This document shows positions 48,138-49,024 of a stretch of DNA of 64,000 nucleotides, piece after piece (the stretch's first letter is position 1; each line of letters starts with the position of its first letter). The translations under genes and the position numbers were made by a program. The stretch spans positions 186,001 to 250,000 of the forward strand of contig NZ_NOXU01000030.1 in the NCBI RefSeq assembly GCF_002251795.1. The letters are read 5' to 3'. The notes under the pieces are model-generated. The model was not told where the DNA came from and did not search any database. It saw nothing but the letters and a program-made list of their open reading frames with translations. Source of the stretch: Niveispirillum lacus (GTDB lineage: Bacteria; Pseudomonadota; Alphaproteobacteria; Azospirillales; Azospirillaceae).

Positions 48138-48719
48138 TCAGGCTTCGCCCTTAACGGTCGGAGCAGCGATCGTGGCGACGGTGAAGTCACGATCCGTGAT
48201 GGTCGGACGCACGCCTTCCGGCAGCTTGACCGAGGAGATGTGAATGGAGGAACCGACCTCAAAGCCGGCCAGATCGACGACGATCTTCTCCGGCAGGTTG
48301 GAGGCCTTGGCGAAGACTTCGATGTCGTGACGCACAATGTTCAGAACGCCGCCCTTCTTCAGACCCGGGCAGGTTTCCACATTCACGAACTCCACCGGCA
48401 CCTTCAGGGTGATTTCGGTGGTCTCGCCGACGCGCAGGAAGTCAACATGCAGCGGACGGTCATAGACCGGGTCCAACTGGACATCGCGGGGCAGGACACG
48501 ATGGGTCGTGCCGTCCAGCGTGATCTCAAACAGGTGGGTGAAGAAACCCGGACGGTGCAGTTCACGATTGAACTTGGCGTAGTCCAGCGAAATCATCACC
48601 GGCTTTTCCTTGTTGCCGTAGATCACGGCCGGAACCAAGCCCTCACGGCGAGCAGCACGGGCGGTCCCCTTTCCGGCCCGGTCGCGAGCCGTGGCGGCGA
48701 GCGAGATAATCTGGGTCAT
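48138..48719 (-). CDS. rplY: 50S ribosomal protein L25 / general stress protein Ctc
   Basis: Binds 5S rRNA. The 193-residue protein is of the long Ctc type: the L25 domain (residues 1-95, with GTARAARREGLVPAVIYG) and a C-terminal beta-rich TL5-like domain (about 100-185, with FVNVETCPGLKKGGVLNIVRHD, here seen as GLKKGGVLN). An AGGAGAG ribosome site is present. Directly upstream lies a terminator-like hairpin with a run of six Ts (separate entry), which suggests attenuation. Followed by pth. Confidence 0.97.
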   Translation of the reverse strand: MTQIISLAATARDRAGKGTARAARREGLVPAVIYGNKEKPVMISLDYAKFNRELHRPGFFTHLFEITLDGTTHRVLPRDVQLDPVYDRPLHVDFLRVGETTEITLKVPVEFVNVETCPGLKKGGVLNIVRHDIEVFAKASNLPEKIVVDLAGFEVGSSIHISSVKLPEGVRPTITDRDFTVATIAAPTVKGEA

Positions 48720-48736
48720 GGTACTCTCCTAGTACG

Positions 48737-48770
48737 AAAAAAGACCCGTGCGCGGCTTCCCGCGTCGGGC
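48737..48770 (-). terminator. Attenuator-like hairpin in the rplY leader
   Basis: On the minus strand a GC-rich stem (CCCG-a-CGCGG, loop GAAG, CCGCG-ca-CGGG) is followed by TC and six Ts, ending 18 bases before the rplY start codon. No minus-strand gene lies upstream, since the next gene runs on the plus strand. It therefore seems to sit inside the rplY leader itself and could attenuate its transcription. Confidence 0.6.
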
Positions 48771-49024
48771 CCGATAGTGGCGCCAGCCTCCAGGGGTGCT
48801 GTACGCCGTTGAAAAAGGTCCGGCCTTGTAGGCGCAAACCGGCCCGGAGTCAAGGTGCAGGCCGGCACTCAACGCGTGCAGATCCGCAGACCCTCCTCTT
48901 GTTGGCGCCTGTCATTGCGGCTTGGAAGGCGGAGTGGGCGCCACCGGGCCCCTGCGGTTCCGGCTTGCGTCTGTTCAACGGCAATGGTCGATTGCCACGG
49001 CTCTTTGCTGAAGGACCAGTATCT

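Follow-up and report, generated by a model that had tools for sequence, protein, structure and literature searches.

What is a terminator-like hairpin doing directly in front of rplY, the gene for ribosomal protein bL25, when no gene on the same strand lies just upstream? The question arises in the window, the whole 64,000-nucleotide stretch of a Niveispirillum lacus contig (NZ_NOXU01000030.1) that we analyzed. According to the original prediction, a GC-rich minus-strand stem with a six-T run precedes the L25/Ctc start codon and no minus-strand gene lies just upstream. Both observations are confirmed: 17 bases separate the T-run from the rplY ATG at 48719, and the neighboring ORF is divergent (PF03372, plus strand). 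The parts of the locus that bear on the hairpin, here called P2, are as follows.

48138–48719, minus strand: rplY, two-domain bL25/Ctc (PF01386 + PF14693; NCBIfam equivalog)
48726–48730, minus strand: rplY Shine-Dalgarno AGGAG (sequence)
48737–48742, minus strand: six-T run 3′ of P2 (sequence, family comparison)
48742–48772, minus strand: P2, the flagged terminator-like hairpin, optional and in a form specific to the window's genus (sequence, fold, family comparison)
48825–48830, minus strand: promoter −10-like TACAAG, spacer 17 (consensus match only; family pattern)
48848–48853, minus strand: promoter −35-like TTGACT (sequence; family pattern)

The encoded bL25 has PF14693, the TL5 C-terminal domain, and bears the annotation general stress protein Ctc; pth comes next after rplY. 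Since the promoter-like TTGACT-N17-TACAAG lies upstream of P2, the likely start site precedes the hairpin, which is thus probably transcribed within the rplY leader, as the original prediction supposed; this placement follows from a consensus match, and the pattern TTGACN-N16..18-TA recurs 46–56 nt upstream of a second hairpin, P1, in 17 of 33 family loci. The Shine-Dalgarno of the window's rplY itself falls within a small GUAC/GUAC hairpin at 48721–48735 (GUACUAGGAGAGUAC). In four Azospirillum-like relatives (L013–L016), a strong stem stands upstream of the rplY promoter and probably serves as terminator for the gene before it.

On the minus strand the P2 stem reads CCCG-A-CGCGG-GAAG-CCGCG-CA-CGGG, that is, 4+5 bp with a 1×2 internal loop, and is followed by TC and the six T's at 48742–48737; the minimum-energy fold extends it to 12 bp once outer pairs are counted. 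The folding energy of this 36-nt segment is −20.5 kcal/mol (z −3.15), a value matched by 3 of 200 shuffles. A simple terminator scan did not pick up P2, probably because of the internal loop. All nine loci of the window's genus with covering sequence (L001–L009) keep the stem, with compensatory replacements (CGCGG/CCGCG to CACGG/CCGUG, for example), and in seven of the nine a T5–T6 run follows. Among the 24 loci from the rest of the family, none has five consecutive T's; 11 have a spacer of 19–25 nt with a weak or absent stem, one (L028) has a stem of intermediate strength, and 12 have a stronger stem of different sequence that lacks the P2-type T-run. Given this distribution across 33 family loci, P2 appears from comparison to be an optional spacer stem whose U-tract is confined to the window's genus, and we rejected it as a conserved element of the rplY leader. 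The stem conservation expected by the original prediction therefore holds in the genus but is optional elsewhere in the family.

Could P2 nevertheless be the attenuator that the original prediction proposed to gate rplY-pth, stopping transcription before rplY unless some signal intervenes? It shares its stem and U-tract with intrinsic terminators and attenuators, its GC-rich stem and T6 fold better than most shuffles and lie between the gene and a likely promoter identified by consensus only, and compensatory changes have kept the stem in the genus. However, P2 is genus-restricted and not a conserved part of the leader, the stem is missing from many family members, and no competing antiterminator was seen in the leader folds inspected, so that we regard attenuation as unlikely. 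It seems no less doubtful that P2 is a remnant terminator, or one working in both directions, that plays no part in rplY. The divergent neighbor would suit such an origin, as would the stems ahead of the promoter in L013–L016, but compensatory change has maintained its stem, and P2 itself stands between the likely rplY start site and the ATG, 17 nt ahead of the latter. We return to the reading of P2 as a genus-specific spacer stem with an acquired U-tract, which may add some premature termination and might end a fraction of transcripts.

If P2 is dispensable, which part of the leader is kept? Comparison of the leader in relatives finds P2 limited to the genus, but just upstream of it the hairpin P1, together with its pairing to the coding sequence, extends across the class.

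48779–48807, minus strand: P1 hairpin, 9 bp with one bulged A; loop 48797–48788 = ACCCCUGGAG (alignment, covariation, fold)
48792–48796, minus strand: P1-loop CCCCU, which pairs with 48666–48670 (codon comparison across loci)
48787–48791, minus strand: invariant loop GGAG plus the closing G, Shine-Dalgarno-like (alignment)
48666–48670, minus strand: AGGGG, codons 17–18 (Lys-Gly) of rplY, partner of the P1 loop (codon comparison, tree, offset scan)
48658–48680, minus strand: P3, potential hairpin in rplY, CGGGC...GCCCG, codons 14–21, with AGGGG in its loop (comparison)

P1 is common to all 33 window-family leaders compared, and rplY itself was found in 56 of 59 relatives of the window. More widely, P1 precedes rplY in 209 of 244 scored loci (71 families), and the recognized loop is missing in the other 35; since L054–L143 were partly picked for having model hits and L144–L203 came almost all from among the rplY matches listed, these fractions are not prevalence estimates. 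In a gap-free alignment of 43 loci and 41 columns, six columns are invariant. The nine stem pairs are formed in 69.2% of cells, compared with 61.7% after shuffling (0 of 500 shuffles as high), and eight of the nine vary on both sides. All slid controls gave fewer paired cells and a lower covariation score than the P1 register. The window's own minimum-energy fold includes P1, and the mean predicted pair probability of the hairpin is low (0.32 in the rigid register).

A covariance model built from 31 of the 43 aligned loci and run against 289 genomes of the class, 275 of which have rplY, gave 68 hits in 65 genomes at E 0.01, some of them in genomes that had supplied training rows. Where rplY coordinates were listed, 54 of 58 hits lie 11–101 nt upstream of rplY on the same strand; the other four are weak (E 0.002–0.009), away from rplY, and provisionally taken as chance. 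As for the remaining ten hits, nine come from loci later retrieved together with rplY, in which the motif precedes the gene, and the tenth genome gave no rplY match. P1 is also found outside the Alphaproteobacteria: a search of 299 genomes of the phylum gave hits in 13 genomes from outside the class, and all 11 outside-class loci examined have the hairpin before rplY and AAGGGG. In named records, among the matches listed, rplY stands beside the motif in 77 of 80; the carriers include Bradyrhizobium, Devosia, Afipia, Reyranella, Terasakiella, Roseomonas and a Magnetococcales bin. As these 80 loci were selected with AAGGGG in the pattern, they were kept out of the codon tests.

In the loci measured, the loop GGAGG ends 24–193 nt before the start codon (median 47), and the copy at the largest distance may be misassigned. 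We considered whether this GGAGG starts an upstream ORF and dropped the idea, as the listings, judged by eye only, show no consistent downstream start codon. Two further exact copies of the loop 12-mer in the N. lacus genome lie inside long ORFs and, by eye, lack a flanking stem; we take them as chance. Two records, L207 (titled as a Lactobacillaceae MAG) and L215 (Frankia sp. RB7), have an rplY and a leader of alphaproteobacterial type and are probably mis-binned or mislabelled. In two loci without a recognized loop (L141 and L153), a C-run (CCCCC or ACCCC) and GGGGAGG are split by an insert and the GGG codon is present; these leaders are possibly P1 with an expanded loop.

What does the P1 loop do? 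Its five bases 5′ of GGAG pair with A-G-G-G-N in codons 17–18 of rplY in 953 of 960 cells (192 distinct rows). When the codons are listed beside the loops, the canonical loop is accompanied by AAGGGG (or AAAGGGG) at Lys-Gly. In codon counts covering 175 of 191 distinct rplY loci (the 16 that lack a G-K anchor were left out), AGGGG occupies codons 17–18 in 117 of 118 loci with the exact loop, L190 being the exception, and in 26 of 57 loci without it (Fisher p 1.3e-17, uncorrected for kinship). Many of those 26 carry the loop CCCUU, which keeps the same register with one G-U. Among the other Gly codons of the 118 genes, GGG makes up 91 of 1780 (5.1%).

Loop base 1 faces the silent third position of the Gly codon. 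In the 209 loci with a recognized loop (from the 244-locus set, from which three duplicates had been removed), this pair is C-G in 166, U-A in 28 and G-C in 8, with 7 mismatches (A-A in four; A-G, C-C and C-A in one each). The 202 paired loci compare with a mean of 161 and a maximum of 172 in 10,000 shuffles. One deeply scanned family has the loop UCCCU with codon GGA; in another, the codon is GGC in the 8 loci with loop GCCUU and GGG in the 21 whose loop is CCCUU or CCCCU, without exception. Within the latter family, each trait changes three times on a tree with weak inner support, on which the starred branches would allow a single origin. A scan of 220 offsets placed the loop match at +4 in 193 of 209 loci, with the overlapping offsets +5 and +3 in 115 and 32 and every other offset in at most 7; where loop base 1 is U or G, the match is at +4 in 36 of 36.

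On a protein tree built from the 168 rows that have C in the loop, the third base of the target Gly codon changes 2 times, and those of six other conserved Gly codons change 35–52 times. For presence or absence of the loop and the codon, independent pairs on the tree ran the same way in three cases, the opposite way in none and without difference in two, an underpowered comparison with too few supported pairs (p 0.25). The loop and its distal partner show the compensatory pairing expected of a kissing loop or long-range pseudoknot, with pair 1 passing through C-G, U-A and G-C, and from these comparisons an RNA contact between the P1 loop and rplY codons 17–18 is near certain. It is very improbable that something other than the leader, for instance a pause site or a codon effect, preserves the GGG codon and AAGGGG and that their match with the loop is coincidental: the codon GGG does occur in 8 of 35 loci without a recognized loop, but elsewhere the codon tracks the loop base through three pair types and switches inside one family.

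Two loci depart from the common pattern. The loop CUUCCC of L030 is complementary to coding GGGAAG over six bases in another register, a possible shifted variant of the loop-coding pairing. L324, a member of the UCCCU/GGA family, combines the canonical CCCCU loop with a GGA codon, leaving one mismatch, and is possibly an intermediate state.

How is the coding partner displayed? Codons 14–21 (Arg-Ala-Gly-Lys-Gly-x-Ala-Arg) can fold into P3, which would present AGGGG in its loop. The silent pair of this hairpin, between the third bases of the Arg and the Ala/Ser codons, is formed in 127 of 131 rows, a count that never rose above 120 in 5000 shuffles, and takes the form A-U, U-A or C-G in eight families; in loci without the P1 loop it is formed in 17 of 34. 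At least four of the five pairs are present in 27 of 27 distinct rows of family f1, 26 of 30 of f13 and 85 of 107 elsewhere, and in 1 of 28 of f23. P3 is absent from the window's minimum-energy fold, and its mean predicted pair probability is 0.22 (one locus skipped). With f23 nearly devoid of P3 and these low pair probabilities, a strictly universal P3 was not upheld. Because P3 is patchy and weak in folds, we grade the geometry below the pairing itself: a kissing arrangement of the P1 and P3 loops around the ribosome binding site is likely in most lineages.

If the loop contacts the coding sequence, how might expression be regulated? We propose that the rplY mRNA is a two-part control element in which the P1 loop CCCCU pairs with AGGGG of codons 17–18, so that the Shine-Dalgarno and start codon fall between the two halves of the contact, the coding partner lying about 50 nt past the start codon. 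In most lineages P3 would present this partner, which makes the contact a kissing loop. The invariant GGAG and A would stay unpaired in the loop, GGAG being the likely ligand contact. Once 5S rRNA is saturated, free two-domain bL25 would bind or stabilize the contact, and the closed contact would hinder initiation, either by impeding 30S entry or by trapping the 30S subunit, as for S15. L25 and its operon partner Pth would thereby be tuned to ribosome assembly. The loop-coding contact cannot govern attenuation at P2, because codons 17–18 are transcribed after the U-tract and hence after the termination decision. On balance, autogenous translational control of two-domain bL25 via this long-range RNA contact seems to us somewhat probable. 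The element shares two marks with r-leaders: a place in the 5′ leader that precedes an r-protein gene, and a conserved RNA structure with covariation. That bL25 is the ligand, and that repression results, we infer. Among candidate ligands bL25 comes first, since the element stands ahead of rplY and since, in E. coli, bL25 acts as a repressor on the mRNA that encodes it (Aseev et al. 2015, as described in PMC10931766).

Does the element mimic 5S rRNA? As no 5S rRNA was found in the draft genome of N. lacus, we compared the 5S rRNA of two relatives, in which the P1 loop strings are absent; exact mimicry was rejected on this ground, and bL25 as ligand is thus not supported by mimicry. The arrangement GGNAA-GGGG / CCCC-UGGAG presumably resembles 5S helix IV plus loop E, a likeness that we did not adopt, as the N (in the first Gly codon) is not conserved. 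A more far-reaching version, which we put forward tentatively, is a class-wide r-protein operator, half of it coding, in which bL25 would read the kissing or pseudoknot helix formed by P1 and the codons as a stand-in for its 5S site, with the leader holding a silent codon position fixed.

It is also possible, and a reading to be taken seriously, that the RNA contact is real and bL25 is not its reader. The contact might instead serve mRNA stability, basal translation or a thermosensor for a stress protein, or it might be read by the 30S anti-Shine-Dalgarno through GGAGG, by a small RNA or by another protein. The invariant, unpaired and Shine-Dalgarno-like GGAG of the loop would fit such roles, as would the annotation of the protein as general stress protein Ctc and the lack of 5S-like sequence in the loop. 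Yet the element stands at rplY in 54 of the 58 placed model hits, the other four being weak, and the comparative work in PMC7247131 assumes that a leader ahead of one r-protein gene is bound by the product of that gene.

Is the element already known? At the gathering score, Rfam 15 gave no match over it in the window or in sets of 12 and 18 loci, and a permissive Rfam search of 451 nt gave one chance match, outside the element. No report of an alphaproteobacterial rplY leader element turned up in the open-access literature searched, which covered neither Aseev et al. 2015 nor a 2017 catalogue of 224 motifs. Within the sections of PMC7247131 used here (Eckert and Weinberg 2020), 20 r-leaders found, like ours, by comparison include an L2 motif in Alphaproteobacteria; L25 is named there for an Enterobacteria motif only, and an alphaproteobacterial L25 leader is absent. 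On bL25 regulation, the part of PMC10931766 used here covers the short form alone, from E. coli and its relatives: the E. coli rplY operator is an irregular hairpin by a weak GAGA Shine-Dalgarno, restricted to gamma-proteobacteria with short bL25. Both systems have a leader hairpin upstream of rplY, with autogenous control shown there and proposed here. Unlike that operator, the element before us precedes a two-domain rather than a one-domain bL25 and a normal AGGAG (48730–48726) rather than a weak GAGA, so that neither hallmark of the E. coli type is present, and its loop ACCCCUGGAG pairs with codons 17–18. Another close parallel is offered by the pseudoknot and kissing-loop leaders of rpsO (S15), in which, in the portion of PMC8470358 that we used, the operator consists of a long-range contact made within the initiation region or close to it, reaching the start of the coding sequence in E. 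coli and drawn in a kissing form for M. tuberculosis. The rplY element is likewise an r-protein leader with a long-range contact near the initiation region, but gene and sequence differ, the partner lies about 50 nt into the coding sequence, and across families the covariation involves a silent codon position. The original prediction was partly right: the rplY leader does hold an undescribed structured RNA, although the hairpin flagged for it is not the conserved element.

The real result is a class-wide leader of rplY, unlisted so far, that pairs over a long range with the coding sequence of its own gene. It offers a concrete candidate for the regulation of two-domain bL25 across a very large bacterial group, and compensatory mutants can test the loop-codon pairing directly. 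It also provides a clear natural example of a distant leader loop that holds a silent codon position, the two switching together. What began as a terminator-like stem leads to what looks like a built-in switch for L25 production in alphaproteobacteria.
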